A stretch of 56,236 nucleotides of DNA from NCBI GenBank assembly GCA_029571985.1, contig JAKQVC010000046.1:1-56236 (forward strand), written 5' to 3'. Position 1 is the stretch's first letter. Every line of letters starts with the position of its first letter. The position numbers and the translations under genes are program-made. The stretch is from Bacteroidota bacterium. Its GTDB lineage: Bacteria; Bacteroidota; Bacteroidia; Chitinophagales; BACL12. Shown here in pieces: positions 2,183-55,090 of this stretch. The notes under the pieces were generated by a model that saw only the letters and a list, made by a program, of their open reading frames with translations, had not been told where the DNA came from and searched no databases.

Positions 2183-5100
2183 TTATTTTTCAACGATCAA
2201 TGTTTGATACATCTGTGTTCCGTCTGCCAGTTGCAGAGAAACCAGGTATGCACCTGAAGGTAATTGATCTGTTGCATAATAAACAGTTTGTTCGCCCGGA
2301 GTAGTGGTAATGACTTCGGAAGCAACAACACTACCTGAGATTGTTGTTATACGCAGAACAGCATCATCGCTTTGTGCAGCAGTAAATACAATTTCAAAAT
2401 AGTCGGCTGCCGGATTTGGCATTAACATCATTTCAGCGGCGATGATTTCTCCTTCACGGCATCCTTCTGTTACGATTAACGCACTGGTAACCGTAGAGCA
2501 ATCATCTTTTGTGGCTATACAATAAAATTTGCCTTTAACGGTTGTGGTATAAGTGCTAGATGTTGCACCGTCAATAGCCACATTGCCTTTATACCATTGA
2601 TAAGATGCACCTGCAACAAAAGAAGCAGACATCATTACTTCTCCACCGCAAAGCCCAACTGTTCCGGATGGTGTGATGGTCAGGCGTTCAATGTATTTTA
2701 ATTTAATATCATCACTAATTGCCTCACAATCACCAGTTGACACTACAGCGCGATATTTTCCTTTAATGGATGCATAATATATAGCATCGGTAGCACCTGG
2801 AATATCCTCACCATTTCTTTGCCATTGAATATTTGTTGCATCGGTAGTTGCTGTTAACATGACAGAAGATTCAAGACAGATAACAGGGCCGTCAGATGCA
2901 ATACTTACAGTTGGTGCAGCTGTTGCTTCAACATGTATTGTGTTTGAAGTTCCTGCACAACCGGCCTGCTCGACAGTTACGGCATAATCACCGGTTGTTG
3001 AAGTGGTAATGGAAGGTGTTGTTTCGCCGGTATTCCAAAGATAGCTGTCATATTCGCCATCAGTATTCAGCGTTACATCTGCACCACAAAACACAACAGG
3101 ACCATCTGCGCTGATGGTTGGATCAGGAATTGGATTTACGGTTACAGTTGTTGCATCCGATGTTGCAGAGCAGCCGTTTTCGTCGGTAATGGTTACTGAA
3201 TAATCACCGGTAGTTTCAACAACAATTGATGGAGTTGTTTCACCGGTATTCCATACATAACTACTTGCGGCGGATGCATTGAGTCCAACAGATTCGCCTG
3301 CACAGAAAGTTGTTTCTCCATCAGCTGTAATACTGGCAACCGGATTATTATTAACGAATACGGAAATAATATTTGACGTGTTGCCGGCATTTATACAATA
3401 ATAATCGCCGCCCGAAGTCACCACAATACTTTGTGTTGTTTCGCCGGTATTCCAAACGTTGCCGGTTAATTCAGATGAGGTTAATATTACGGAACCGCCA
3501 TCACAAAAAGTAACAGGGCCATCAGCAGAAATGGTAACGGTAGCGCATGGCTCTACAACAACTTCAATGGTTGTGGTATTATCGCTACAACCTGCAGCAT
3601 TGTAAACAGTAGCAGAATACATACCGGATTCTGTTACCAGAATAGATGCCGTAGTTGCACCGGTATTCCACAAATAAGAAGTACCGCCTGTTGCAGAAAG
3701 ACTTACGGATCCGCCGGTACAAAATGTTGTTGGACCATCCGCACTAATTTCCCCAATAGGATTTGAATTTACGGTTACGGAGGTAAGTGCAGATGTGCTG
3801 GAGCAACCATATGCATTAAATACAGTTACGGCATAATCGCCACCAGAAGTTACGGTTATAGCATCTGTGGTTTCGCCGGTGGTCCAGGCATAAGTAGTTC
3901 CCGGAGAGGACATCAGGGTAACGCTTCCGCCATCACAAAAAGTTGTTGAGCCATCAGCTGTAATAGTTGCATCAGGAAGTGCATAAACGGTAATGTGTAA
4001 TGGATCGGAGATAGCAGAACAATCGTTTTTCGTTAATACAACGCTATAGTCGCCGGTAGCATCAACTGTAATGGAAGCGGTTGTTTCGCCGGTATTCCAT
4101 AAATAGCTGTCGGCAACTGCCGGGACACTTAATGTTACACTTCCGCCGGCACAAAATTCAGTTGGGCCATCCGCTTCAATAATGGCAACCGGTAATGGGG
4201 TTGATTCAGTCGTAATTGTATTTGAAACACGTACACATCCACCACCATTATCGATGGTTAAGTATTGATCTCCCGACAGGGTAACGGTATTTGTTTCAGT
4301 AACAGAACCATCACTCCACAAATAGTTTAAATGATGATCCGGTGTGCTGAGTGTAATCGATTCTCCATCACAGAAAGTTGTTTCGCCTTCAGCTATGATG
4401 GTTATCTGGTCCGGGCAATAATTATTCGTGAGCGTATATCCTCCGAAGTGAGTTGTTGAGTAATAATTCACAAGCGCATAATATGTACCGGCAGCTAAAT
4501 CGGTTTTTGTAATGCTGAAATTTCCATAATTACTGCCAGATGCCAGTGAAGTTCCTGCATTGTTCAGAATATACATGCTGTTATACTGAGAAGGACCTTT
4601 AGCAATGCTTAATGTTAAATCGCCCGGCTCGCTTAAGATAATTTCATAATAATCATTTTGGTCGTAAATCGTGCCATTATTTCTGTATCCAATGTGACCA
4701 TCAACAGTAGAGTTGGTGAGCATTGGCGATGCTGTTTCGATTGTTCCATTTGGTTCAGGATCGTTTGCGTACGGCGGAGGGGTTACCGATAGCGATAACG
4801 AATAGGAAGAATAATAAGTACTGCTGTAATTATCTACTTTGGCATAGTAATCGCCTGCAGCCAGGTTGTTTACTGTAATGGTTGTAGTGGTATAATTAAA
4901 ATCGCTTGAGAGTATCGTAGTACCGTTGTTATCATACATGTAAATACCATGATATACACCCAATGGCTGATTCAGGGTTAGGGTAACCGCACCATCCTCG
5001 GTTGTGGTAAATGTATACCAGTCGTTAGCATCATAGCCGCCACCATTTTCATAAAATCCGATATGACCATATACGGTTCCACCTACCGGAATAGCAGTTG

Positions 5101-6292
5101 TTGCTTCCGTATAGATGTCATTTGGTTCAGCATCGTTGGCATAGGCTGTAGGTGTTACCGCACATTCAAGCGTATATCCTGAATAATACACAGTTGAGTA
5201 ATTATCCACTTTAGCATAATAGGTGCCGGCTGACAAATTGTTTTTTGTGATGGTGACATTTGTATAGTTAAAATCGCTGGTTAGAATAGTTGTGCCATCA
5301 TTATCATATAAATACAATCCATGATACATACCCAAATCCTGATGTAAATTCAGCACGAGTTGACCATCCTGAGAGAGGTTGATGACATACCAATCGTCCG
5401 TATCAAAAACACCACCATTGGCCCGGTGACCGATATGTCCGGTTACACTACCGTTTTCCGGAATGGTTGTATTGGTTTCTGCAAACACATTGTTGGGTTC
5501 GGTATCGTTTGCCAATGCCGTTGGTGTTACTGTATTTGAAATTGTATAGGCATTGAAATGCACAGGTGCATAATAGTGTAATCTTATATAATAGGTGCCG
5601 GCAGCTTTCCCATAAACAGAGATACTTCCACTTGAGTAGGCCGACTGTGAACCCAGTATTGTTGTTCCGTCGTTGTCGTAAATATATATCGTATTGTATT
5701 TTCCGGTTTCATTTGTAAATGTTGCCGTTATGGTTCCATCGGAAGTAGTCGTTACCGAATACCAATCGTCGGTGTCGTAAGAGCCACCATTGTTTCTATA
5801 TCCAATATGCCCGTTAGCGCTGCCATTTTCGGCAAGAGTTAATGCGTTGGTGTAGGTATCGTTTGGTTCGCTGTCATTTGCAAAGTTTGCCGGCGTAACA
5901 GTAGCTGTGAGCGCATAATTTCCGGAATAGGCGGCGTAGGCCACAATGGAAGCGTAATAATTTCCAGCAGCGAGGTTGCTGACGGATATGGACAGAGGGG
6001 CATAGTTTGTAGTGGTGCCTAAAATAGTTGTGCCATCCGCATCTAAAATCTGGATAGTCAGATAGTTTACATCACCGGTCATGGATAAATTGATTTGTCC
6101 ATCATCCGTTGTAGTAAATGCATAATAATCCACTAAATCACCGGCAAAATTGAGCGTTCCGTTTTCCGGAATATCCAGGCTAAGATTATCAGCCCCGGCC
6201 GGGGTGTCGTTGTCGGGCTCTGTATCGGCCCACAACATGCTGCTGGTGCAAAATATGACGAGCAGTAGAGACAGTAGTTTTCGAAATTTCAT
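2183..6292 (-). CDS. Large T9SS-exported adhesin with PPC-like and Ig-like repeats
   Basis: A 1369-residue secreted surface protein. Residues 1-22 form a signal peptide. Five PPC-like (bacterial pre-peptidase C-terminal) beta-sandwich repeats of about 120 residues follow (about 23-625), recognisable by the NDxEPN start, GHIGYRxNGG and DWY motifs. About nine Ig-like repeats of some 70 residues (about 630-1285) share ADGPTxFCxGG and WNTGETT motifs with paired cysteines. The C-terminus from MPNPAADYF (about 1288-1369) is a type A T9SS sorting domain, so the protein should cross the outer membrane and be anchored or released at the surface. Its role is likely adhesion or matrix binding; no catalytic domain is visible. 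It lies downstream of a sensor kinase/response regulator pair and has its own likely promoter and a strong terminator. Confidence 0.9.
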   Translation of the reverse strand: MKFRKLLSLLLVIFCTSSMLWADTEPDNDTPAGADNLSLDIPENGTLNFAGDLVDYYAFTTTDDGQINLSMTGDVNYLTIQILDADGTTILGTTTNYAPLSISVSNLAAGNYYASIVAYAAYSGNYALTATVTPANFANDSEPNDTYTNALTLAENGSANGHIGYRNNGGSYDTDDWYSVTTTSDGTITATFTNETGKYNTIYIYDNDGTTILGSQSAYSSGSISVYGKAAGTYYIRLHYYAPVHFNAYTISNTVTPTALANDTEPNNVFAETNTTIPENGSVTGHIGHRANGGVFDTDDWYVINLSQDGQLVLNLHQDLGMYHGLYLYDNDGTTILTSDFNYTNVTITKNNLSAGTYYAKVDNYSTVYYSGYTLECAVTPTAYANDAEPNDIYTEATTAIPVGGTVYGHIGFYENGGGYDANDWYTFTTTEDGAVTLTLNQPLGVYHGIYMYDNNGTTILSSDFNYTTTTITVNNLAAGDYYAKVDNYSSTYYSSYSLSLSVTPPPYANDPEPNGTIETASPMLTNSTVDGHIGYRNNGTIYDQNDYYEIILSEPGDLTLSIAKGPSQYNSMYILNNAGTSLASGSNYGNFSITKTDLAAGTYYALVNYYSTTHFGGYTLTNNYCPDQITIIAEGETTFCDGESITLSTPDHHLNYLWSDGSVTETNTVTLSGDQYLTIDNGGGCVRVSNTITTESTPLPVAIIEADGPTEFCAGGSVTLSVPAVADSYLWNTGETTASITVDATGDYSVVLTKNDCSAISDPLHITVYALPDATITADGSTTFCDGGSVTLMSSPGTTYAWTTGETTDAITVTSGGDYAVTVFNAYGCSSTSALTSVTVNSNPIGEISADGPTTFCTGGSVSLSATGGTSYLWNTGATTASILVTESGMYSATVYNAAGCSDNTTTIEVVVEPCATVTISADGPVTFCDGGSVILTSSELTGNVWNTGETTQSIVVTSGGDYYCINAGNTSNIISVFVNNNPVASITADGETTFCAGESVGLNASAASSYVWNTGETTPSIVVETTGDYSVTITDENGCSATSDATTVTVNPIPDPTISADGPVVFCGADVTLNTDGEYDSYLWNTGETTPSITTSTTGDYAVTVEQAGCAGTSNTIHVEATAAPTVSIASDGPVICLESSVMLTATTDATNIQWQRNGEDIPGATDAIYYASIKGKYRAVVSTGDCEAISDDIKLKYIERLTITPSGTVGLCGGEVMMSASFVAGASYQWYKGNVAIDGATSSTYTTTVKGKFYCIATKDDCSTVTSALIVTEGCREGEIIAAEMMLMPNPAADYFEIVFTAAQSDDAVLRITTISGSVVASEVITTTPGEQTVYYATDQLPSGAYLVSLQLADGTQMYQTLIVEK
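2440..4405 (-). repeat. Array of about nine Ig-like repeat units inside the adhesin
   Basis: Units of roughly 200-220 bp recur in tandem. Short blocks are nearly identical at DNA level, for example GTTTCGCCGGTATTCCA-type blocks (encoding WNTGETT on the minus strand) near 3020, 3240, 3440, 3660 and 4085. The last two units toward the C-terminus diverge (WQRNGE, WYKGN) and lack this block. Confidence 0.8.
4420..6225 (-). repeat. Array of five PPC-like repeat units inside the adhesin
   Basis: Five units of roughly 360 bp begin at NDxEPN-type codons near positions 6225, 5880, 5510, 5130 and 4770. Units 2-5 carry the GHIG(Y/H/F)RxNGG segment; unit 1, next to the signal peptide, lacks it and is the most diverged. 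Confidence 0.75.
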
Positions 6293-17928: not shown

Positions 17929-20712
17929 ATGAAATTCAGGATACTCTTAGGGCTCAGCCTTTTATCTACCAGCCTGTTGCAGGCACAGGTCGTTTACACC
18001 GATCCGATTTTCCCCACCCCGGATATACCGGTAACCATATATTTTGATGCTTCGCAGGGTAATGCCGCTTTGATGGACTGCGGTTGTGATGTGTATGCAC
18101 ATACGGGTTTGATTACGGATGAAAGTGATTCGCCGGTTGACTGGCAGATGGTTCAGGGTGTTTGGGGCACAGCAGATCCGGAAGTGTTAATGACATACGA
18201 GGGAGATAATATTTACTCCATTACCTATAGCAGTATTCTTGATTTTTATGGCGCCGCTGTTGATGATATTATTTATCAGATGGCATTTGTGTTTCGCGAC
18301 GCATCAGGCGCAACGGTTGGGCGCTCTGCGGATGGTTCTGATATTTATTATGATGTATATGCTCCTGGTTTAAACGTGGCCATCACAGCTCCCGACGCAG
18401 ACCCTTTAATTGTAGAACCCGGTGATAATATTCATATTGAAGCGTATGCCACTTATGTGGATAGTATGTATTTATATGTTGATGGAATTGAAGTTGCCGC
18501 AGTTGAAGACAGCAGTGTTGTTTATGACCATACTGCCGTGGATTTTGGCGCTTCCGAAATCATAGTAAAAGCCGTGGGCGATGGCGATGTGTTATACGAT
18601 ACCGTACGCTATTTTGTTATTGCGCCGGTGGTTACAGAAGCGGTGCCTGCGGGTTTACATCAGGGGATTAATTATATAGATGATAATACCGTTACGCTCG
18701 TGTTATATGCGCCGTTTAAAAATTACATTTTTGCTGTTGGAGAGCATAGCGACTGGCTGTTGAATGATGAGATTTATATGAAGCGCGATCCGGATGGAGC
18801 AACATGGTGGGTTACACTCAGTGGTCTGGAAGCCGGAAAGGAATATCCATATCAATATTTTATTGATGGGGCATTGTATGTGGCAGACCCGCTCACCGAA
18901 AAAGTGTTAGACCCATGGAATGACGGATTTATTCCGGAAGAAACCTATCCGGATTTAATTGATTACCCGACAGGAAAAGCCAGTGGAGTTGTTTCTGTAT
19001 TTCAAACAGCACAACCGGCATACACCTGGGCTGTGACCGACTTTACACCTGCACCAACAGAAAAATTAGTGATTTATGAATTGTTGATTCGCGATTTTCT
19101 GACCGCACGTAATTATCAAACGCTGACCGATACGCTTACCTATTTAAAAAATATGGGCATAAACGCTATCGAATTAATGCCTATTATGGAATTTGAAGGC
19201 AATGAAAGCTGGGGATATAACCCAAGCTTTTTTATAGCACCGGATAAATATTATGGCACACCGCACGCGTTAAAAACATTTATTGATAGTTGCCACGCGA
19301 ATGGCATTGCGGTTATTTTGGATATTGCATTAAACCACGCCTTTGGCCAGTGTCCTTTGGTGCAAATGTGGTGGGATGCAGAATTAAATGCGCCTGCGGA
19401 TAATTCACCCTATTTTAATCAGGTGCCAACTCATGATTACAATGTGGGCTACGACTTTAACCACATGAGTGCTGCAACCATTCAATTCCGCGACCGCGTT
19501 TTCGCGCATTGGTTAGAGGAATATCATGTAGATGGATATCGCTTTGACTTATCGAAAGGGTATACACAAAATAATACTTTGGGTGATGTGGGCGCATGGG
19601 GCGCTTATGATGCACAACGCATTGCTACCTGGGAAGATATAGGCGGGAAATTGTGGGCGATTAATCCAAACGCTGTTTTAATTCTGGAACACTTTGCGGC
19701 CAATAATGAAGAAGAGGTTTTATCGGATTTTGGATTTTTATTGTGGGGAAATATGAATTACAATTACGCTCAGGGAACAATGGGCTACGGCGGCAGCGAT
19801 TTAGCCTGGGGCAGTTATGTAACACGTGGTTGGAGCAATCCGCATTTAGTTACCTATGCGGAAAGTCATGACGAGGAGCGATTAATGTTCAAAAATCTTT
19901 CTTTCGGAAACACCAACGCAGATTATAATGTAAAGGACCTGAACACAGCATTAAAACGCATGGAACTTGCCGGCGCGTTTTTGTTTACCATTCCGGGACC
20001 AAAAATGCTGTGGCAGTTTGGGGAACTGGGTTATGATTATTCAATAGAATACGGTTGTCGCGTGTGTAATAAACCGGTTCGCTGGGATTATTACGATGTG
20101 CCGAATCGCGAACGCATTTATCAGGTTTGGGGTGAATTGATAAAACTGAAAACCACATATGATGTGTTTAGCACAAATAGCTTTTCATTAAATGTTGCCG
20201 GTTTCGGCAAGCGCATCAGCTTAAACAGTCCGACGATGAATGTTACGGTGCTTGGGAATTTTGATATTAACATGGCCAATGTTATTCCTGCATTTCAGCA
20301 TGTAGGTTGGTGGTATGAATATTTTAGCGGTGACAGCCTTTATGTGAATGATGTAAATGCCAGTATGACGATGATTCCGGGCGAATACAGGTTATATACA
20401 GATGTGCGATTGTCGACACCGGAAATTGTTGATGGTATTAACGATGGTGAAATAATTTCTGCTCAGGATATTCAAGCATGGCCAAATCCAACATCGGGAG
20501 ATGTGCAATTGCTCACGACGTTAAAAACACCATCGTCAGTAAGGGTTCAGATTGTTGATCAAACCGGCGTGCGTGTCCACACGGAAGATTTGGGCGTTCA
20601 GCCTTCCGGCGATTTGTTATATATCTGGAATCAGGATGTGCCGGCCGGATTATATACCATATCAATTACCACCGATAGCGCAAGCGGCGCTGTGCGAATT
20701 GTTCGCTTGTAA
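17929..20712 (+). CDS. T9SS-exported GH13 alpha-amylase family glycosidase
   Basis: A 927-residue secreted enzyme acting on alpha-1,4-linked glucans such as starch or glycogen. A signal peptide (1-19) is followed by N-terminal beta-sandwich domains (about 20-235), a CBM48-like E-set domain (about 240-330; TVTLVLYAPFKNYIFAVGEH) and the GH13 barrel (about 360-760). The four GH13 signature regions are present: DIALNH (465-470), GYRFDLSKG with nucleophile Asp540, ILEHF with acid/base Glu587, and ESHDEE with His647-Asp648. A C-terminal T9SS domain starts at AWPNPTSG (about 850-927), so the enzyme acts outside the cell. No SusC/SusD pair or transporter lies nearby. It converges with the DUF5686 gene, with 4 bp between the stops. 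Confidence 0.93.
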   Translation: MKFRILLGLSLLSTSLLQAQVVYTDPIFPTPDIPVTIYFDASQGNAALMDCGCDVYAHTGLITDESDSPVDWQMVQGVWGTADPEVLMTYEGDNIYSITYSSILDFYGAAVDDIIYQMAFVFRDASGATVGRSADGSDIYYDVYAPGLNVAITAPDADPLIVEPGDNIHIEAYATYVDSMYLYVDGIEVAAVEDSSVVYDHTAVDFGASEIIVKAVGDGDVLYDTVRYFVIAPVVTEAVPAGLHQGINYIDDNTVTLVLYAPFKNYIFAVGEHSDWLLNDEIYMKRDPDGATWWVTLSGLEAGKEYPYQYFIDGALYVADPLTEKVLDPWNDGFIPEETYPDLIDYPTGKASGVVSVFQTAQPAYTWAVTDFTPAPTEKLVIYELLIRDFLTARNYQTLTDTLTYLKNMGINAIELMPIMEFEGNESWGYNPSFFIAPDKYYGTPHALKTFIDSCHANGIAVILDIALNHAFGQCPLVQMWWDAELNAPADNSPYFNQVPTHDYNVGYDFNHMSAATIQFRDRVFAHWLEEYHVDGYRFDLSKGYTQNNTLGDVGAWGAYDAQRIATWEDIGGKLWAINPNAVLILEHFAANNEEEVLSDFGFLLWGNMNYNYAQGTMGYGGSDLAWGSYVTRGWSNPHLVTYAESHDEERLMFKNLSFGNTNADYNVKDLNTALKRMELAGAFLFTIPGPKMLWQFGELGYDYSIEYGCRVCNKPVRWDYYDVPNRERIYQVWGELIKLKTTYDVFSTNSFSLNVAGFGKRISLNSPTMNVTVLGNFDINMANVIPAFQHVGWWYEYFSGDSLYVNDVNASMTMIPGEYRLYTDVRLSTPEIVDGINDGEIISAQDIQAWPNPTSGDVQLLTTLKTPSSVRVQIVDQTGVRVHTEDLGVQPSGDLLYIWNQDVPAGLYTISITTDSASGAVRIVRL

Positions 20713-39971: not shown

Positions 39972-42900
39972 TTACTTAACCACTACCCGCAAACCGGCGC
40001 TGTGGCTGGTAAATTCAGGAGCATACATACACTGAATAGTGCTGATGCCATTGCTGAACTGGCCTTTTTGCGACACGCGCACAGGATATTCAAACACATA
40101 CGTTCCTTTTGATAAATAGCTGATGAAGAAATTCGTACTCGCATCGCCGGTGGCTTCATAATAACCAAGGCCATCTTGCCATTTATATGAACTGAGTACA
40201 TTCAACGGTTCGAAGGCACTGGCCCGCATATCTTTCAGATGTACATATTCTAAATCGCGGTCGGATTTTAATTCTATCCGAACGGTAACCAAATCTCCGA
40301 TATGCAATTCGGTTTGTTCGGTAATGGGTTTCAAAACAGGACCTTTATCGGAATTTACTTTCAGGAATAATTGTTTGTTCAATTGCAGGTTCGTTGCAGC
40401 GGAGGTTACTTTATCCATATCCTCAAAATATTGCCAATACATAGCACCGTAGCTCAACAAATTTTCACTTGAAGGGGTGATGCTAATGTTGCCTAATGCA
40501 TTTTGAATATCCGCTCCCAGCCAATTGGTTTTAAAATAGCCGGTCCCCATTTCTGTTTTTTCAGGTTGAACTTGTGTGCCACCGGCAGTAATGATTGCCA
40601 ATTCGTTATTGCTCAGTAAATTTTTACCGCGGGATAAAATGGCATAGCATGCTTCTGCTGTTGCACGGGTTGTTTTCCAATCGGTAGTTTGTTTTTGGCG
40701 CAGCAACCAGATTTGCAAAGCATCAACAGCGTTTTTGTCATTAGCTACTTCACTGAACACTTCAACCATCAGGGCCTGTGTTTCGATGGGCGCCTGATAC
40801 CAATAGTAGCCGGCTGTATTATTTTTCCAGTACATACCCATTTCTTCGCTGCGTATACTTGTTTCGGTTAATGATTTAACAATATCCGCAGCGGTCTTCG
40901 AACGACCCGCACGATGCATAATAAGTGCAATCAGGCCTTTTTGATATAAATCATACTTTGTCCAATATTTTTCTGCCTGCGCCATAAAATAATCTTTCGC
41001 TGTTTTTTGTCCGGATGTTAATGCATCGGTATAATCCGTGTAATAGCCTGAAGTATATAAATATTGCAGGATGATATTGTCTGGAACGTAAGTCGACTTA
41101 TCTACTTTATATTTCTCCAGATTAGTATAAGTCGTTTCCATTTCTCGTGAACAATATTCAAATGCCTGTTTAAGCATCGAATTTGTTGAGGATTTATCGG
41201 CGTCATCCACTACATTTAATTGTTGCAAATGTGCAAATCCCGTTACAATATATTGTGTGATATACGCACTGCTTCTGTCGCCTTTAAACCAAGGCCAACC
41301 GCCATCTGCGTTTTGTTGTCTTTTTAGCTTGGTAAGAGCGGCAGATTGCTCGTTCTCCATGCGATTAACATCAAAGAGGAGTGCAAGACGTTTTTTGTTT
41401 TCAGTTTCATTTTGTGCTTGCAATACCCAAGGGGTTTCTTGCAGCAACAAGGATTTTAATTCTTGATTTTTTTCCAAATTGCTCGTCAACGATTCCGGAT
41501 TTGATTTCCAGCTATCAAATACGCGTTTAATTTCCGGATCGCTTTGTGCAATGCCGCTCGCGATGGTGTTCGCGTAGTAGCGACTAAACAGTTGTTCAGA
41601 ACATTCGTAAGGGTATTCCATCATATACGGTAATGCCTGAACAGCATACCAAGCCGGATTAGATGCGTATTCAAGCGTAACACGCTGATGCCTGAGTGTT
41701 GTTGAGGTATTATTTATTAGTTTGTTGAATGAAAAACTTTTAGGTGCTGAACCTCTCACCCACAAAGGCAGACTTTCGGTTACCAGAATCCGGTTACTGA
41801 GAACAGGCAATCCATTTTCTTCACCATCAGTAAAGGTGCCATCGCTCGCTTTAATGCGATATACAACGGCGTCAATCCCTTCGGGCACACTTATTTCCCA
41901 TTCAACGGATGTACTGCCTTTTTCTGCAGCAGCAAAATTCACTTCCGTTTTGTTGAGTCCAAATGCACTATTTAACGGTTGCATATTTGTAGCATTGAAG
42001 AACTCCAGCTTGGCTACACCGTTCATAGCTTTTTCACTCAGATTGGAAATTTTTGCGCTTATGTGCATACGATCGCCTTCTCGTAAAAAGCGCGGCATAT
42101 TTGGTTGAATCATTAATTCCTTTTGCGTAATTACCTGATCAACGAGTGTACCGCTGCGCATGTCTTTTGTATGGGCAAAAGCAATAAACTTCCAGGTGGT
42201 AAGCGCCTCTGGCATGGTGAAACTAAAAATCAGCGAACCATTACTGTCGGTTTGCAATTGGGGATAAAAGAAAGCTGTTTCATTAAAGTTTGTGCGCACC
42301 TGAACTTGCTCCAAATCAATCGGAACGTTGCGGTTGCTATCCAAGGATAATGCAGACGATTGAATATATTCGTTTGCTTTATATTTATCAACATCACCAT
42401 CATACATTGGGCTCATTGCCACAAAGCCTGATTGTTGTTTTCTGGTTAAGTTGAGCACAGCAACTTCTTCAAGTTTGCCTTCTGAGTTGGAAGAAATGCT
42501 TATGCCGTCTATTAAATAAGTATAATCATCGGAACGAGAACCTCTTATATTAATATAACCACCATAAGTAAATGCGCATGACAACAGTTCGTAATATTCA
42601 GTATATCTCTGAAGGTCTTCGGCATAAAAACCGGGTTCCGCTAACAATTCGGCGTACCTGCTTTCAAACCCGCCGCCGGTCATGGTGGAGGACAAATAGT
42701 TTTGCGGCCAGGATATGGCATCCCATTTATAATAGCCTTTAAATGCATCTAAGGATTTATCATACATGGAAGCGAGTAGTTCCGCAGCAACCGCCTCGCC
42801 ACCGTCGCCGGTGATATTAATTTTCCAGGTTTCCTGCGCTCCGGGTTGCAGTTTATCACGATGTGTTTCAACAGACAACTTGAGCTCCTTGTTGTTATAG

Positions 42901-45900
42901 GGCACAAAAATGTAAATTGATTCGGAGTGCCAACGGCCGTCTTTTACATGGCTGATTTGAATATGCATACCACCTCGATCTGCCTCCGTTACGGGAATTT
43001 CAAAATCGGTCATGCTGCCACCTTTTTTGTCCGCCACTTGTTTCAGTGTTACCCATTTAGTTTCAGTTCCGGTACGGCGATAGATTGAAACTAATGCCTG
43101 TACATTATCTGCGCTGCTACCTACAGCAAATACAGCATTAGAACCGGGTTTAACCGTGAGATATTGTTTATCAACAAACAGATAATCCGGAATAGCTACT
43201 TCTGAGGACTGACTCACCACGGACACATCGTGCGTTTGTTTAATATGATTACCTTGTTTGTCAATTGATTGAATTTCTATACGGTACACACCGGGTTTCA
43301 ACTTTGTTAACGGCAATTGTATGGAATCTGCAACTTTGGTATCCCATTTCACTTCATACAATTCAGGTCCCGCGGTCCACAGTTCCTGATTGTTTTCCTG
43401 GCGATACTGATCATGTGGAAACAAGGCATGAAATTCTTTTTCGCTCATTGTAAATTGATCAGGCACGTCCCAAAGTCGCTCGCGATATAATTTATTTGGT
43501 GCTGAGAGCGCATAAATTGAAACGGTACCACTTGCCGACAGCGGCGATCCGTTCAAATTGCTTGTTTTAATGGTAATCCATTCGTTCTTAGCGTTTACAT
43601 AAGATTCAGACACATCGGCGGAAACGGATAGGCTATGATATCCGATAGAAACGGAGCCATTTGAAGAGCGTGTTTCTCCGGAGAGGTCGGTTACATCAAC
43701 TGAAACCGTGTACGTGAAAATCGGCAAACCGGCTTTATCACTGCCGGGATCCGGAATTGCTTTAAAAGGTATTATAAATGCACCGGCACCATCTGTTTTT
43801 ACTTCGCCAAAGGCAATTTCAACATCGTTAGCATAGGCCGGCATCATTTTCCTACCGAATGTATAAAACGGATAGGGATAGGAAACGCTGCGAGTTACAC
43901 GATACTGAACAGTAGCCTGATCAATTACAGCTCCGCTATAGGCGGTTGCTTTTCCGGTAACCTGCACGCTGTCATTTACGGCATAATCTCCTTCAAGCGG
44001 ATTAACCTCTACCGCAAATGTAGGTCGCTTGTACTCTTCAACACTGAAACTTACGGAGCCAAGTTCATTTCTAATTTGCATCTGACCGGTAAGTGTTCCA
44101 ACAGGAGCTGTAAACGAGCCGCTAAACGAACCGTATTCGTTGGTTGTAAATACCTGTTCGCCTATGCGTTGATAATTGGCATCATAGAAGTACACAATAG
44201 TGGAATATCCGGGAACCACTACTTCGTTGCGACCGCCTTCTGATTTTTCAACAACAATTCCTTTAAAATAAATTGTTTGACCGGGGCGATATATTTTTCT
44301 GTCAGTAAAAAAGTAGGTGCTTTTGTAGGCGTAGTATTTACTTTTTTCAGCTTTCGCAATGTAGTAATTGTTATCGGCCTCGAGCTGATCTTTTCCGTTG
44401 GTAAGCAGGAAGCTAAAGTCATAATAATCGCGTATGAGGGGATCGCGCACTATGAACAAGCCATTAGCATCTGTAACATATGTTTGTAATGGTTTGTTTT
44501 CATATCTGTTTTTAATGCTGCTATAATCCTTTTTAAATGTTTGCACTTTTACGCCCTTTAATGGCTTGCCGGTTGTGCGGTCGGTTACATAAAATTGTTT
44601 GCCAAATTCATCATCATTATAGCCGCCAACAGCTATAAAACTCATATTTGAAATCCAAAAATCTGTATAGCTCATCAGCTTGGCTGAAGTGGTGTCTTTG
44701 CCGTTACGAATAACCATGAGGTAATTACCAAATGGAAGTCCATCTGCTTTTATTTCCGCGATGTGTAAATTGTAATCTTCAGAACCGGGCAGTGTTTGCT
44801 CCCAGCTGCGTATTGGTTCTAATTTATCTATTTCAGCAATTCTTTCATCATACGACAATGATTCCAGATAGTATGTGGTTTCAGCATTTGTTGGGTATAC
44901 GGTACACCAAACCGTGTCGGTGTTTTTATATTGAACCGACATCCGGAATGGCAAGTCGGCCACATTAACACGCTCCATATTCAGCTGAATCATTGGGGAA
45001 ATGATTTCATTTTTTAGGGCAGTACATAGTAACCCACCCATACTATTCGGGTATTTTGCAATAGCCTTATCAAGATATTCGAGAGCGGTTTTGTTTTCCC
45101 ATTTATTAGGACCATCATCCAATCGTACGTAGCTGCCTGCTTTTTCACGATGCCACAATCCGATGAGATGAGAAATTCTGGCAGAGGAGCTGTCGTTTAT
45201 AAATTGTTTTTCATCGCGCAGCAACGCATTCAGATAAACACTATCTTGATTATCAACTATGCCATTCGCCTTTGCATACGCGTATCTGGTTAGTGTAACA
45301 TCAACCAGTGCATCCGGATACGGGTCGTATAAATGTGCCGTTGTGAGATCTTGCAATAATCTTACTGCGTTGAATTTAACACCTGATTTACCTGCCACAT
45401 CAAAGGTATATCCGGAAAACTGTTTAGGCGATGCAAACAGATTGGGGTCTGACCAGGTAAAATCATTTACCGAGCTTGGTAAATAATAATTTCCCGTCAA
45501 ATAAAACTCCAGTGCCCGATGACCCAATAAATCAAATAAGGTAGGTCGGAATAATTCTCCATATGCATTACCCGGAATTAATATCTCCGCATAATTTTTT
45601 GATTTTATTTTTTTTAATACTTCTCTGTCACGAATACTTTCCTGATAAAGCGAAAGTGCTTTATTATACAGGGTCAGCTTATCCCAGGTATTGATGTCAT
45701 CACTAACAAGCGTGTCGGTATAAGTTCTGGCGCTGATGCGCCATTGATTAATCGTGAAATAGCTCCAATACATTTCGGCCAATTGGCTTTGCAAAATATT
45801 TTTCTCAGGAGCGACGGCATTCTTTATTTCGTTTTCAAAAATCTGAATGGCAAGTGCTTCGCCATTTTCATTGAGCGCAGAGGTGTATTTGGCTTTATAA

Positions 45901-46136
45901 CTGGTCGACTTGATGGTTTGCGGACCATTTTTTTCTGCTTTCGCATGCGCATAAATATCTTCAACCACCTTTAAGGCAGACTCAGGCAATAGCAATTGAT
46001 CAAGAGAGTCAACCGTCTTCCATGCAGCCTCATAACCGGTCCATTCTGTTTTTTCTAATTGTTGCAGTGTTCCTACAGCGGCAAAGGCAGTTAATCCTGC
46101 CATACTAAGTCCTATAATCCAGTGTTTCATTGTCAT
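39972..46136 (-). CDS. Thioester alpha-2-macroglobulin family protein with plug-like insertion
   Basis: A 2054-residue exported protein. The N-terminus (MTMKHWIIGLSMAGLTAFAA) is a signal or anchor without a lipobox. A helical, TPR-like N-terminal region (about 30-400) precedes MG domains, including the MG2 start DRKIYRPGQTIYFKG near residue 610. The A2M core begins near 1275 (FSFTMPEALTTWKF). The thioester motif CSEQ is at 1512-1515 in YPYECSEQLF, followed by the helical thioester/complement-like domain. Bacterial A2M proteins are thought to trap invading proteases in the periplasm. Between them, residues about 1197-1212 read IRGSRSDDYTYLIDGI, close to the plug motif of SusC/TonB-dependent receptors. 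No pbpC (PBP1C), the frequent partner, is adjacent. A second Met at residue 3 is an alternative start. Confidence 0.92.
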   Translation of the reverse strand: MTMKHWIIGLSMAGLTAFAAVGTLQQLEKTEWTGYEAAWKTVDSLDQLLLPESALKVVEDIYAHAKAEKNGPQTIKSTSYKAKYTSALNENGEALAIQIFENEIKNAVAPEKNILQSQLAEMYWSYFTINQWRISARTYTDTLVSDDINTWDKLTLYNKALSLYQESIRDREVLKKIKSKNYAEILIPGNAYGELFRPTLFDLLGHRALEFYLTGNYYLPSSVNDFTWSDPNLFASPKQFSGYTFDVAGKSGVKFNAVRLLQDLTTAHLYDPYPDALVDVTLTRYAYAKANGIVDNQDSVYLNALLRDEKQFINDSSSARISHLIGLWHREKAGSYVRLDDGPNKWENKTALEYLDKAIAKYPNSMGGLLCTALKNEIISPMIQLNMERVNVADLPFRMSVQYKNTDTVWCTVYPTNAETTYYLESLSYDERIAEIDKLEPIRSWEQTLPGSEDYNLHIAEIKADGLPFGNYLMVIRNGKDTTSAKLMSYTDFWISNMSFIAVGGYNDDEFGKQFYVTDRTTGKPLKGVKVQTFKKDYSSIKNRYENKPLQTYVTDANGLFIVRDPLIRDYYDFSFLLTNGKDQLEADNNYYIAKAEKSKYYAYKSTYFFTDRKIYRPGQTIYFKGIVVEKSEGGRNEVVVPGYSTIVYFYDANYQRIGEQVFTTNEYGSFSGSFTAPVGTLTGQMQIRNELGSVSFSVEEYKRPTFAVEVNPLEGDYAVNDSVQVTGKATAYSGAVIDQATVQYRVTRSVSYPYPFYTFGRKMMPAYANDVEIAFGEVKTDGAGAFIIPFKAIPDPGSDKAGLPIFTYTVSVDVTDLSGETRSSNGSVSIGYHSLSVSADVSESYVNAKNEWITIKTSNLNGSPLSASGTVSIYALSAPNKLYRERLWDVPDQFTMSEKEFHALFPHDQYRQENNQELWTAGPELYEVKWDTKVADSIQLPLTKLKPGVYRIEIQSIDKQGNHIKQTHDVSVVSQSSEVAIPDYLFVDKQYLTVKPGSNAVFAVGSSADNVQALVSIYRRTGTETKWVTLKQVADKKGGSMTDFEIPVTEADRGGMHIQISHVKDGRWHSESIYIFVPYNNKELKLSVETHRDKLQPGAQETWKINITGDGGEAVAAELLASMYDKSLDAFKGYYKWDAISWPQNYLSSTMTGGGFESRYAELLAEPGFYAEDLQRYTEYYELLSCAFTYGGYINIRGSRSDDYTYLIDGISISSNSEGKLEEVAVLNLTRKQQSGFVAMSPMYDGDVDKYKANEYIQSSALSLDSNRNVPIDLEQVQVRTNFNETAFFYPQLQTDSNGSLIFSFTMPEALTTWKFIAFAHTKDMRSGTLVDQVITQKELMIQPNMPRFLREGDRMHISAKISNLSEKAMNGVAKLEFFNATNMQPLNSAFGLNKTEVNFAAAEKGSTSVEWEISVPEGIDAVVYRIKASDGTFTDGEENGLPVLSNRILVTESLPLWVRGSAPKSFSFNKLINNTSTTLRHQRVTLEYASNPAWYAVQALPYMMEYPYECSEQLFSRYYANTIASGIAQSDPEIKRVFDSWKSNPESLTSNLEKNQELKSLLLQETPWVLQAQNETENKKRLALLFDVNRMENEQSAALTKLKRQQNADGGWPWFKGDRSSAYITQYIVTGFAHLQQLNVVDDADKSSTNSMLKQAFEYCSREMETTYTNLEKYKVDKSTYVPDNIILQYLYTSGYYTDYTDALTSGQKTAKDYFMAQAEKYWTKYDLYQKGLIALIMHRAGRSKTAADIVKSLTETSIRSEEMGMYWKNNTAGYYWYQAPIETQALMVEVFSEVANDKNAVDALQIWLLRQKQTTDWKTTRATAEACYAILSRGKNLLSNNELAIITAGGTQVQPEKTEMGTGYFKTNWLGADIQNALGNISITPSSENLLSYGAMYWQYFEDMDKVTSAATNLQLNKQLFLKVNSDKGPVLKPITEQTELHIGDLVTVRIELKSDRDLEYVHLKDMRASAFEPLNVLSSYKWQDGLGYYEATGDASTNFFISYLSKGTYVFEYPVRVSQKGQFSNGISTIQCMYAPEFTSHSAGLRVVVK

Positions 46137-46268: not shown

Positions 46269-46850
46269 TTATGCCACATGCGCCTGATGTTTGCGCAGGT
46301 AATAGAGAAGAGCCACATCAATCCAGAAGTGTGCAATCATGGCCGCAGGGAGTGAATACTGCTGACATATCCATCCGAACCCAAAACTTACGCCGCTTAA
46401 AAAAATACCATAAATGAAAAGCGGTCTGTTTAGCGGATTCAGATATCCGTGCAAAAAAACAAATAAGATGGCTGTGATGCCGATTCCCAGGTATTGCTGT
46501 ACAAAGCCGCGGAAGAGCAATTCTTCGCCAACGCCGGCGCAGAAAGACAAAACCCAGATATGCCAGGTTTGCACGCGATAATCTGTCATCAAACCGGCAA
46601 AAAAAGCACGTGTACCGCGCAAATAGGGGGTTTGCAGCAGCAAAAGGAGCGGAATTAGAGAAAAAGAGGCAAAAAGAGTGCCAATTCCAAGGGATTTCAC
46701 ACATTCGCCGGTGCTGGCGGGCATCAGCCGGGGCAGTGCATCGGGTATAAAAATGGTCATCAAAGCCAACCCCAACCCGCCAAGGCCGAACAAGGTAACA
46801 GCCATGGCGATGGCTAAAGCACGATGTGGGTTAACGGGAGGAGCAGACAC
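46269..46850 (-). CDS. CPBP-family intramembrane metalloprotease
   Basis: From GTG 46850 this is a 193-residue multi-pass membrane protein. Its CPBP (Abi/Rce1-like) motifs are EELLFRG in the third helix region, the His of FLHGYLNP and the His/Asp of AHFWIDV, which together form the Glu/His active site of these proteases. Bacterial members are linked to bacteriocin self-immunity or protein maturation, but the target is unknown here. The open frame extends upstream to another GTG at 46919; ATG 46805 is a shorter option. The 46850 start is chosen because a CAACTTTG element (TAnnTTTG-like) lies about 11 nt upstream, but it is uncertain. Confidence 0.78.
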   Translation of the reverse strand: MSAPPVNPHRALAIAMAVTLFGLGGLGLALMTIFIPDALPRLMPASTGECVKSLGIGTLFASFSLIPLLLLLQTPYLRGTRAFFAGLMTDYRVQTWHIWVLSFCAGVGEELLFRGFVQQYLGIGITAILFVFLHGYLNPLNRPLFIYGIFLSGVSFGFGWICQQYSLPAAMIAHFWIDVALLYYLRKHQAHVA

Positions 46851-46938
46851 GATGTGAAGGTAGACAAAGTTGTTTGGCAATACCTGACAGCTATAACAGG
46901 CTAACCCGGTTGCCGACACAGGAAAATAGAGGCAACCT

Positions 46939-52489: not shown

Positions 52490-52531
52490 TAATGGATAAA
52501 ATGCACGATGTGCTTAATGTTAAGATTGCAT

Positions 52532-52539
52532 TATCTTTA
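52532..52539 (+). promoter_or_regulatory. Putative -7 element (TATCTTTA) for the sulfatase gene
   Basis: TATCTTTA differs from TAnnTTTG at the last base. It lies downstream of the first ATG of the open frame (52508) and 7 nt before ATG 52547, so it argues for the later start. Confidence 0.4.
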
Positions 52540-52546
52540 TATGACC

Positions 52547-55090
52547 ATGAAAAATCTGAGCGCACATCGTATATCATTTTTACTATTGTGTTTATTTGTG
52601 CAGATTAAGTGTTATGCCCAGACAGAGGCTAAGCCAAACATTATTTTTATCATTCTAGACGACCTGAATGATTACACCACAAGTCTTGGCGGACACCCAC
52701 AAGCGCTTACACCCAACATCCAGCGCATTGAGGATGTTGGAACCACTTTTACAAATGCACACGCACCGGCTCCCAAATGCGCACCATCCCGCACCAGTTT
52801 TATGACGGGAAAAGATCCGTCGTATACCGGTATTTATTTCAATATGGCCTGTAAGCCGTTACGAGATTTTTTCACAGTTGAGGATGGAAATGAAGAAGTG
52901 TTCACCCTACCCGAATATTTAAAGGATTATGGCGGATATTACACTTACGGTATTAATAAATCATTCCATTGCTTTGACACATATTTTGATTTTGATAGTG
53001 CAACAGTTAACCCTTGCGATAAAGAGCTAAGCTGGAGTAAATACAGCATCTTTGATAATGGTGAGGATTCTGTAATTTTTCACTATGGCATTGAAAACAG
53101 TGATGATATAGCAGGTCTTGCGGGTCAACCCATTCCGGATAGTCTGGAAAGCCAGATGTATGATTATCGCGCTGTTGATAGTGTTGGATTGTTCCTGAGC
53201 CAATATCAGTCGGGCGATTTGGATGCCTGTGGCAAGCCATTTTTTATTGCAGTGGGTTTTCGAAAACCACATGAGGTGCGATTGATTCCGGAAAAATATT
53301 TTGAGCCATATTATTGTTATAATTTTTACCAGGTGCCGTTTGATTATCCATACAACACGCCCAACAACGCCTATCCATATAATGGTATTGTCATGCCACC
53401 TCAACCGGATACACTCTACAATGATTTTTATCAACTACCTGAAAATGGCCTTGGTCAATTTATGGCAGCCTACGACAGTGTGTATTTTGAAATAGAAAAC
53501 GATATTGATGAGTTTCACCCACTACCTTATTTTAATGGCGCATTCTCTGAGGAGGATCGAAGGGCTGTTGCGGCACAGACGATAAATGCAAACTTTGTAT
53601 CCACTTATGTAGCAGCGGTTAAATTTATTGATGCACAAGTAGGTCGCCTTTTGGATACACTGGCTTTGTATCCTGAAATTGCAAACAATACCATTATTGT
53701 GCTGGTGGGCGATCATGGATATAGTATTGGTGAAAAGAGGCATTGGAAAAAGGGAACCTTGTGGGAGACAGATTTGCGTGTGCCCTTTGTTATTAGTGAT
53801 TATAGATTTCCTCAGCCACAAACAGCACATGTGTCGGTTGGATTAACAGATATTTTTCCCACTCTTTGTGATCTTTCTGGGATTGAACAACCCACATTTT
53901 CAGATGGAACACCCTATTTAGATGGCGAAAGTTTAACACATATTCTTTCTAATGCAGCGCTGCAGATGGAACGGCCTGTTTTAGGTACTTATATGGAAGG
54001 AAAGGACTTTCAATTAAGTTGCCGGCCTCAACATAGTTTACGTGGCAACAGGTTTCATTATATTCGGTATGCCTCTAATGGGCCGGCTGGAACATCTGAT
54101 TGTAATGATACCGCTTATTTTATCGAAGAGGAATTATATGAAATCGGAGAATTGCATAATGTAGATCCAAACGAATGGCATAATCTGGCATATAATCCTG
54201 ATTATCGACCCGTAATAAACTATTTACAACAATGGTTGCCGGATAGCGTATTATACATGCAAAAAACATTAATAGCGCGCATTCAACAACCAACAACAGC
54301 ATGCTTGCCAAGTCAAAAAGATATATTGTCGCTCTCCTTTAACATGTTTGATGAATTGGGAATGCCGATTTCTCCGCCGGATAGTTTGCAATATGTTTGG
54401 ACAAATAATTTTTCTGAAAATGTGATTATCGGCACACACGCCGATTTCCCGTTAAATGAGATGCCTGTTGACTTTTATACTACACATAACTCTATGTTGT
54501 GGTATATGCATGCTTATGGTGCAAATCAGGTTATTCGTGCATTTGATATTCGCGAAGTTTTGTTTAATCCTTCAACGGCACCAACAGTTAGCTTTAATTT
54601 GAAACGAACTGGCGACTTAACGGTTGAGGTAATCGATTTTATGGCAACTGGTCATTACACGAAATTACAATGGGATTTTGGTGAAGGCGTTGTGTTGACT
54701 CATGAAGTGCCGGGGCCATACACTTATGCTGCTCCTGGCAATTATACTGTTACCTGCCACTTATATTATGGAAATGATAGTTCTTGTGTAGATAGTACAT
54801 CACGACTCATTGAATTTACTAAAGTGCCTGAAACGCCTGCTGATTTGCTAACTGTTTATCCAAATCCCTCAACAGATATTTTATATGTTGCCGCAAGCGA
54901 TCCATTTAATTGTGGTGAGTGTTTAGTGTATGATCTTGCCGGCCGATTGGTGTTTCAGGAAGATATATCTCAATGCCCGATTTATCAGTTCTCCATACAT
55001 GTAGATGCTTTTCCGCAGGGCGTTTATCAAATTGTATATCGAAATGCATTGGAGCAAAGAGTTGGAGCCTTTATTGTTGCGAATAAATAG
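52547..55090 (+). CDS. T9SS-exported sulfatase with PKD domain
   Basis: From ATG 52547 this is an 847-residue secreted enzyme that hydrolyses sulfate esters, probably of polysaccharides (iduronate-2-sulfatase-like). Signal MKNLSAHRISFLLLCLFVQIKCYAQ is followed by the metal-binding ILDDLND, the formylglycine site Cys78 in KCAPSRTSFMTG (CxPSR form) and VGDHGYSIGEKRHWKK. The sulfatase domain runs to about residue 580. A PKD domain (about 680-765, QWDFGEGV) and a T9SS domain starting at VYPNPSTD (about 770-847) follow. The Cys form needs a formylglycine-generating enzyme encoded elsewhere. ATG 52541 or 52508 are alternatives; a -7 element at 52532 speaks against 52508. Confidence 0.92.
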   Translation: MKNLSAHRISFLLLCLFVQIKCYAQTEAKPNIIFIILDDLNDYTTSLGGHPQALTPNIQRIEDVGTTFTNAHAPAPKCAPSRTSFMTGKDPSYTGIYFNMACKPLRDFFTVEDGNEEVFTLPEYLKDYGGYYTYGINKSFHCFDTYFDFDSATVNPCDKELSWSKYSIFDNGEDSVIFHYGIENSDDIAGLAGQPIPDSLESQMYDYRAVDSVGLFLSQYQSGDLDACGKPFFIAVGFRKPHEVRLIPEKYFEPYYCYNFYQVPFDYPYNTPNNAYPYNGIVMPPQPDTLYNDFYQLPENGLGQFMAAYDSVYFEIENDIDEFHPLPYFNGAFSEEDRRAVAAQTINANFVSTYVAAVKFIDAQVGRLLDTLALYPEIANNTIIVLVGDHGYSIGEKRHWKKGTLWETDLRVPFVISDYRFPQPQTAHVSVGLTDIFPTLCDLSGIEQPTFSDGTPYLDGESLTHILSNAALQMERPVLGTYMEGKDFQLSCRPQHSLRGNRFHYIRYASNGPAGTSDCNDTAYFIEEELYEIGELHNVDPNEWHNLAYNPDYRPVINYLQQWLPDSVLYMQKTLIARIQQPTTACLPSQKDILSLSFNMFDELGMPISPPDSLQYVWTNNFSENVIIGTHADFPLNEMPVDFYTTHNSMLWYMHAYGANQVIRAFDIREVLFNPSTAPTVSFNLKRTGDLTVEVIDFMATGHYTKLQWDFGEGVVLTHEVPGPYTYAAPGNYTVTCHLYYGNDSSCVDSTSRLIEFTKVPETPADLLTVYPNPSTDILYVAASDPFNCGECLVYDLAGRLVFQEDISQCPIYQFSIHVDAFPQGVYQIVYRNALEQRVGAFIVANK

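Follow-up and report, generated by a model that had tools for sequence, protein, structure and literature searches.

Sequence comparison showed that the bait slot of alpha-2-macroglobulins (A2Ms) captures receptor modules in Flavobacteriaceae; in other Bacteroidota the same is seen more sparsely. The slot repeatedly takes up the N-terminal module, or only short parts of this module, from SusC/TonB receptors of the same cell, keeps it for a while and then replaces it. The case that led to this view is an A2M gene in a 56,236-nucleotide stretch of a Bacteroidota genome (contig JAKQVC010000046.1, assembly GCA_029571985.1), the whole of which is called the window here. Its protein carries a motif resembling the plug domain of TonB-dependent receptors. 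We confirmed both the motif and its surprising location; by itself it is likely, but not certain, to be a plug fragment.

The A2M gene of the window

The features of the gene, all on the minus strand, are the following.

39972..46136, minus strand: A2M gene, 2054 aa (ORF; Pfam MG2, A2M and bMG10, all over the cut-off)
44067..44318, minus strand: MG2 domain, residues 607-690 (Pfam PF01835, E 2.7e-17)
42300..42737, minus strand: bait-region slot, residues 1134-1279, flanked by YDxSLDxF and RTNFNETAFF blocks (alignment anchors)
42492..42563, minus strand: plug-signature-like stretch GGYINIRGSRSDDYTYLIDGISIS, residues 1192-1215, which includes the motif at 42501-42548 (Pfam Plug E 0.0062; motif pattern; own-genome receptor match)
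42456..42473, minus strand: weak Ton-box-like LEEVAV, residues 1222-1227, after the plug piece, the reverse of receptors (motif scan, loose pattern)
42018..42278, minus strand: Pfam A2M domain, residues 1287-1373 (PF00207, E 9.5e-21)
41592..41603, minus strand: thioester motif CSEQ, residues 1512-1515 (CXEQ is given as the thioester site in PMC4498604)
40014..40379, minus strand: bMG10 domain, residues 1920-2041 (PF17973, E 8.5e-32)

By these features the gene is a Type I bacterial A2M, with the CxEQ thioester, and a putative protease trap. Its N-terminus is hydrophobic, and a crude pattern found no lipobox. The Pfam scan of the protein revealed no outer-membrane beta barrel family, and the CarboxypepD-like domain (PF13715) was absent both from the whole protein and from the bait scanned alone.

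The motif lies in the predicted bait region

In an alignment of 18 A2M segments, taken from relatives as well as from the window's genome, the motif fell in a hypervariable stretch between two well conserved blocks, one ending in YDxSLDxF and the next beginning with RTNFNETAFF. AlphaFold, run on residues 1029-1470 with an alignment of 50 rows, predicted residues 1135-1269 to be disordered (pLDDT <50) between confident MG strands. The top Foldseek matches of the model were members of the A2M family (CD109, C3, Salmonella A2M 4u48, E. coli A2M 5a42, 4rtd and 4ziq). Searching solved structures with a profile of the MG/bait segment gave no match at E 0.001; the bait is thus placed by the alignment, the predicted fold and the Foldseek matches. 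On this model an MG domain contains a disordered loop, the bait region, and the motif sits there. The bait-region domain of E. coli A2M is described as largely disordered and lies within MG8 (PMC4498604).

The initial annotation had proposed that the segment is an inserted plug-type or CarboxypepD-like module that could dock the A2M to the outer membrane or to a TonB system; against this would count a predicted ordinary MG-domain loop together with the lack of the motif in A2M homologues. The prediction did give a loop, the disordered bait, yet homologues do share the motif. Since the fragment sits in this loop, its default role would be protease bait rather than outer-membrane docking. The idea of an inserted module held for other Bacteroidota A2Ms, which carry plug and CarboxypepD-like sequence at the same place; the window has a fragment only. 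Taken as a whole, the earlier interpretation is partly supported.

The plug-like motif

The 16 residues IRGSRSDDYTYLIDGI occur exactly where they had been reported, at residues 1197-1212 (window 42501-42548, minus strand), about 75 residues ahead of the Pfam A2M domain. Their likeness to a plug was borne out when the bait was scanned alone: Plug was the sole Pfam family, at E 0.0062 and 17.5 bits, under the 23.9-bit cut-off. The match spans 33 of the 107 Plug positions, short of a complete plug domain, and Plug was unlisted at E<=0.01 when the whole A2M was scanned. The signature IRGxRSDxxxYYIDGI, originally attributed to the plugs of SusC/TonB-dependent receptors in Bacteroidota, fits a receptor group of the window's own genome (NIKGSRGDATEYIIDG) better than classical SusC, in which it reads IRGxxS...PLYVIDGV. 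The best other match in that genome aligned GGGLNIKGSRGDATEYIIDG with GGYINIRGSRSDDYTYLIDG (47% over 32 residues, E 0.0016), and the matching receptor bears CarboxypepD-like and Plug domains.

A loose motif pattern, [IVLM]x[ILVFK]RG-x(6-22)-[YFLI][VIFL][VIFL][DN]G[VIKTQ], devised after the motif was seen, was found in 2 of 200,000 shuffles of the window bait and was absent from the 388,733 residues outside the baits of 228 A2M ORFs. Of the 228 baits, some of them hand-picked, 18 contained it. Profile searches with the window bait alone failed as proof of plug origin. A SusC profile built from 19 receptor sequences gave it only 2.6 bits, and its score on a short SusC-signature profile was equalled by 265 of 20,000 shuffles. 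The NCBIfam SusC signature was absent from the window A2M and from a 101-aa piece of its bait, and the motif was absent from the closest relative, the congener L010 (55% identical overall). For the window protein alone, we therefore make the plug call with modest confidence.

Receptor sequence in the baits of relatives

The relatives' A2M baits hold convincing receptor-derived sequence, as judged from profile and domain matches. For a census of Flavobacteriaceae, 149 baits were extracted from the best 150 listed A2M matches of 299 genomes; L358 was left out because its bait could not be extracted. A profile of the SusC N-terminus scored at least 8 bits in 98 of the 149 listed baits, against 3 of 7450 shuffles. 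Among the matches listed, 22 combined a CarboxypepD-like domain with a Ton-box linker and a plug, 8 had a plug, 26 had the CarboxypepD-like domain with pieces and 42 had pieces only, and the remaining 51 gave no profile hit. A complete plug was thus present by the SusC profile in 30 of the 149 listed baits. Even among the 51 listed baits with no hit, 27 still have one of three motifs, where 1.2 were expected.

A wider set of 218 distinct baits (228 extracted minus duplicates, with hand-picked long ones included) gave 62 with at least 15 bits on the SusC profile, a score that none of 4360 shuffles reached and none of 2052 stretches taken from elsewhere in these proteins. Receptor-like sequence was unevenly spread among these distinct baits: 1 of 28 from the window's relatives (pieces, and not the window itself), 15 of 80 from the named best matches (13 pieces, 2 plug), 0 of 26 from the class top-30 set and 12 of 25 from the family top-30 set (pieces). 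The thioester CxEQ was kept in 76 of the 78 ORFs with receptor-like baits.

The Pfam families that recur in baits are Plug, the CarboxypepD-like domain and a small number of beta domains similar to the latter. Other abundant folds were nearly missing. In 123 baits of the first collections, at E 0.1, Plug had 5 members and each other family 1, and the CarboxypepD-like domain was found in 39 of 89 relatives' baits of a partly hand-picked set. Another 75 listed census baits, previously unscanned, had 15 CarboxypepD-like domains and 7 Plug; other families were few, with 1-7 members each, and were mostly small beta domains, which we take to resemble the CarboxypepD-like fold. Plug exceeded the Pfam cut-off in the baits of Winogradskyella ludwigii (L077, E 1.5e-11) and Mangrovimonas spongiae (L117, E 1.5e-8). 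The bait of L226 matched the N-terminus of the solved SusC 8aa4_A (residues 34-236) at E 6e-37.

Baits from genomes of the families f75 and f61 hold all or some of the receptor module's elements, namely CarboxypepD-like domain, Ton-box linker and plug. We infer that f75 corresponds to Flavobacteriaceae, because the A2M stretch of one member (L235, genome G474) is identical to that of M. spongiae.

Adjacent A2M paralogs a few kb apart were also seen. At G616:C9 and G618:C5 a paralog with a short bait stands beside one that carries a whole receptor module, and at G478:C1 one of the neighbours has a CarboxypepD-like bait.

The Ton-box-like piece and the order of short pieces

The element most often kept is the Ton-box-like piece, present in 96 of the 149 listed baits (56 by a stricter pattern). 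In the 42 listed baits of the pieces class it occurs in 33, IRG in 22 and GRVAG in 18. Only 2 of the 8 listed whole-plug baits that lack a CarboxypepD-like domain have the Ton-box motif. In the receptor Bt1763 the Ton box, DEVVVTG, is reported to be flexible and is thought to become exposed to the periplasm, and its loss impaired growth on levan much as losing SusD did (PMC7782687).

Short baits (L093, L192, L201, L203, L205, L207 and others) mostly run IRG, then GRVAG, then EVVV, the opposite of receptors. Among listed census baits without a whole domain, 26 had the permuted order (RE 12, RGE 8, GE 4, RG 2), 3 had the receptor order (EG, ER and GR, one each) and 1 was mixed (REG); a partly overlapping bait set gave 20 permuted, 3 native and 1 mixed. 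The window bait follows the permuted order as well, with IRG...IDG and then LEEVAV. We considered that the pieces are just decayed remnants of a whole module, and dropped this as the full story given 26 permuted against 3 receptor-ordered baits. The fixed non-receptor order would fit use at the level of motifs.

Capture and turnover of the bait

The bait cassette has been gained, lost or replaced repeatedly, because the nearest receptors of some modules are in the same genome, two close A2Ms differ in their bait tails and a scaffold tree needs at least 10 changes. The module of L226 shares 62% identity with a SusC encoded 34 kb away on the same contig of its own genome, against at most 51% with receptors of the other seven genomes. 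For L242, the nearest SusCs are in its own genome (57%) and in a congener (59%), followed by 51% in the congener and 49% elsewhere. On their two flanks, each compared over 300 residues, the Winogradskyella A2Ms L077 and L061 are 93% and 97% identical; the first 60 residues of their baits are near-identical and the tails are unrelated. The tail of L077 is a whole plug and that of L061 is an EEVVVVGY linker, both SusC-derived.

The scaffold tree, made with FastTree with the bait excluded and with gains and losses pooled, required the whole-module label to change 14 times, and well supported branches forced at least 10 of these changes; the module tree needed 3 label changes. In the module tree, 16 of the 17 modules from A2Ms form a group, with forks left open, that also takes in 2 receptor rows, and L242 falls among the receptors. 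A single ancient acquisition of the module is not supported by these trees. One fully supported scaffold clade of 11 rows, largely picked for long inserts, has the CarboxypepD-like domain in 11/11 and the plug in 9/11.

The bait tail evolves faster than the flanks in most pairs. Its dN/dS was 0.26, 0.58 and 0.26 in unsaturated close pairs, pairs with dS near or above 1 being left out as saturated. Since these values are below 1, the tail sequence is not free-running.

What the receptor sequence may do

We favor the explanation that the A2M is a protease trap whose bait copies the N-termini of the cell's own receptors as a decoy, a function on which the evidence leaves us evenly divided. In the A2M family, cleavage of the bait triggers collapse and attack by the thioester (PMC4498604, PMC9352918). 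A protease entering the periplasm would cut the long disordered loop, the A2M would collapse on it and the thioester would bind it covalently. The reported motif would be a piece of TonB-receptor plug sequence within that loop. Receptor N-termini presumably face the periplasm with a flexible Ton-box linker, so that proteases attacking receptors would spring the trap. A bolder version casts the A2Ms of Flavobacteriaceae as immune traps of the periplasm whose integrated decoy is repeatedly re-copied from their own SusC/TonB receptors, so that any protease that evolved to attack these would be caught covalently; short baits with IRG, GRVAG and EVVV pieces, the window's too, would be minimal decoys consisting of recognised motifs only. 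This we regard as possible but rather doubtful. Some observations count against a decoy. The congener L010 lacks the motif, and in most pairs the bait tail has evolved faster than its flanks. Only about 24 window residues are plug-like and two profile tests are weak; a whole folded plug would be an odd bait if disorder is required (the plug of L077 had about 50 pLDDT in AlphaFold). An A2M also does not need receptor sequence, because 51 of the 149 listed Flavobacteriaceae baits and 26 of the 26 class top-30 baits had no hit.

Capture could instead be neutral, if the slot tolerates almost any in-frame insert, abundant TonB-receptor N-termini are the commonest donor and only cuttability matters. 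Donors are indeed plentiful (21-56 Plug matches per genome in 10 genomes, 30 in the window's genome) and bait turnover is fast. We nevertheless consider this unlikely: the unsaturated pairs have dN/dS values under 1, hardly any bait contains another abundant fold, short baits draw on three recurring pieces that mostly keep to one order, different from that of receptors, and the 11-row clade kept its module, although this last point is weak since rows were picked for long inserts. Another possibility is that TonB, through its C-terminal domain, binds the Ton-box-like linker, so that the A2M would be tethered to the TonB machinery or the bait pulled on by it, which would give TonB an unexpected partner. 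The wide retention of this piece, its lead in the pieces class and the levan phenotype of Bt1763 speak for such docking, which we hold to be improbable, given that GRVAG and IRG plug pieces recur though docking has no need of them, that the LEEVAV of the window lacks the subsequent GYG, and that the Ton-box motif is missing from most baits that have a whole plug and no CarboxypepD-like domain. For the window alone, the motif might be a chance resemblance in a hypervariable bait, as its weak profile scores, its absence from L010 and the single receptor-like bait among 28 from the window's relatives would allow. This seems improbable to us beside the Pfam match to Plug and to no other family, the rarity of the loose pattern in shuffles, the match to a plug receptor of the same genome and the undoubted receptor sequence in the same slot of many relatives.

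If baits are copied from the cell's own receptors, they would point to the proteases that A2Ms guard against. They would form a readable record of what is attacked and a bacterial analogue of integrated decoys. The decoy explanation predicts that the same proteases cut receptor N-termini and A2M baits.

Relation to known systems

The Type I A2Ms of E. coli and Salmonella (ECAM and Sa-A2M) share the MG domains, a bait inside an MG domain and CxEQ; the description of their baits in PMC4498604 is of largely disordered regions, with no mention there of a receptor-derived module. MagD of P. aeruginosa (Type II) is likewise a bacterial A2M with a cut bait, and differs in being reported without the CxEQ thioester (PMC5764988). 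The N-terminus of SusC/RagA receptors (Bt1763, RagA) is described with a CarboxypepD-like NTE, the Ton box DEVVVTG and a plug, like the baits (PMC7782687). Relatives' baits match solved SusC/RagA chains. The A2Ms differ from these receptors in having no barrel, the window has only a signature fragment, and short baits have another order of pieces.

Some plant NLRs contain integrated decoys, in which a defence protein carries a copy of the attacker's target. The idea would be the same here, in unrelated proteins and with covalent protease trapping as the read-out. We found no description of receptor sequence in A2M baits in open-licence PMC full text, the literature covered; the receptor-derived bait would be a variant of the known Type I A2M design, apparently undescribed in that literature.

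Other observations on A2M loci

As a further difference from the E. coli and Salmonella A2Ms, no PBP1C gene was found among the window neighbours or among the ten neighbour genes scanned at five Flavobacteriaceae loci. An Rce1-like CAAX protease-family protein is encoded just upstream of the A2M on the same strand (window 46269-46919, minus strand), and a TPR-repeat protein is divergently encoded beside the A2M in four of four Flavobacteriaceae loci (L077, L093, L117 and L160). The window's own genome has a second, distant A2M-like ORF of 1800 aa (G000:C4:158337-159002). The A2M match of L026 (G004) spans one internal TGA, which may reflect a broken gene or an assembly error.

Records L050, L074, L079, L105 and L119, labelled Cloacimonadota, Calditrichota and Delongbacteria, contain A2Ms 44-50% identical to the query, which may represent transfer or mis-binned contigs. 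Three other window proteins (2183-6292, 17929-20712 and 52508-55090) have type IX secretion sorting domains, one of them together with a sulfatase domain.
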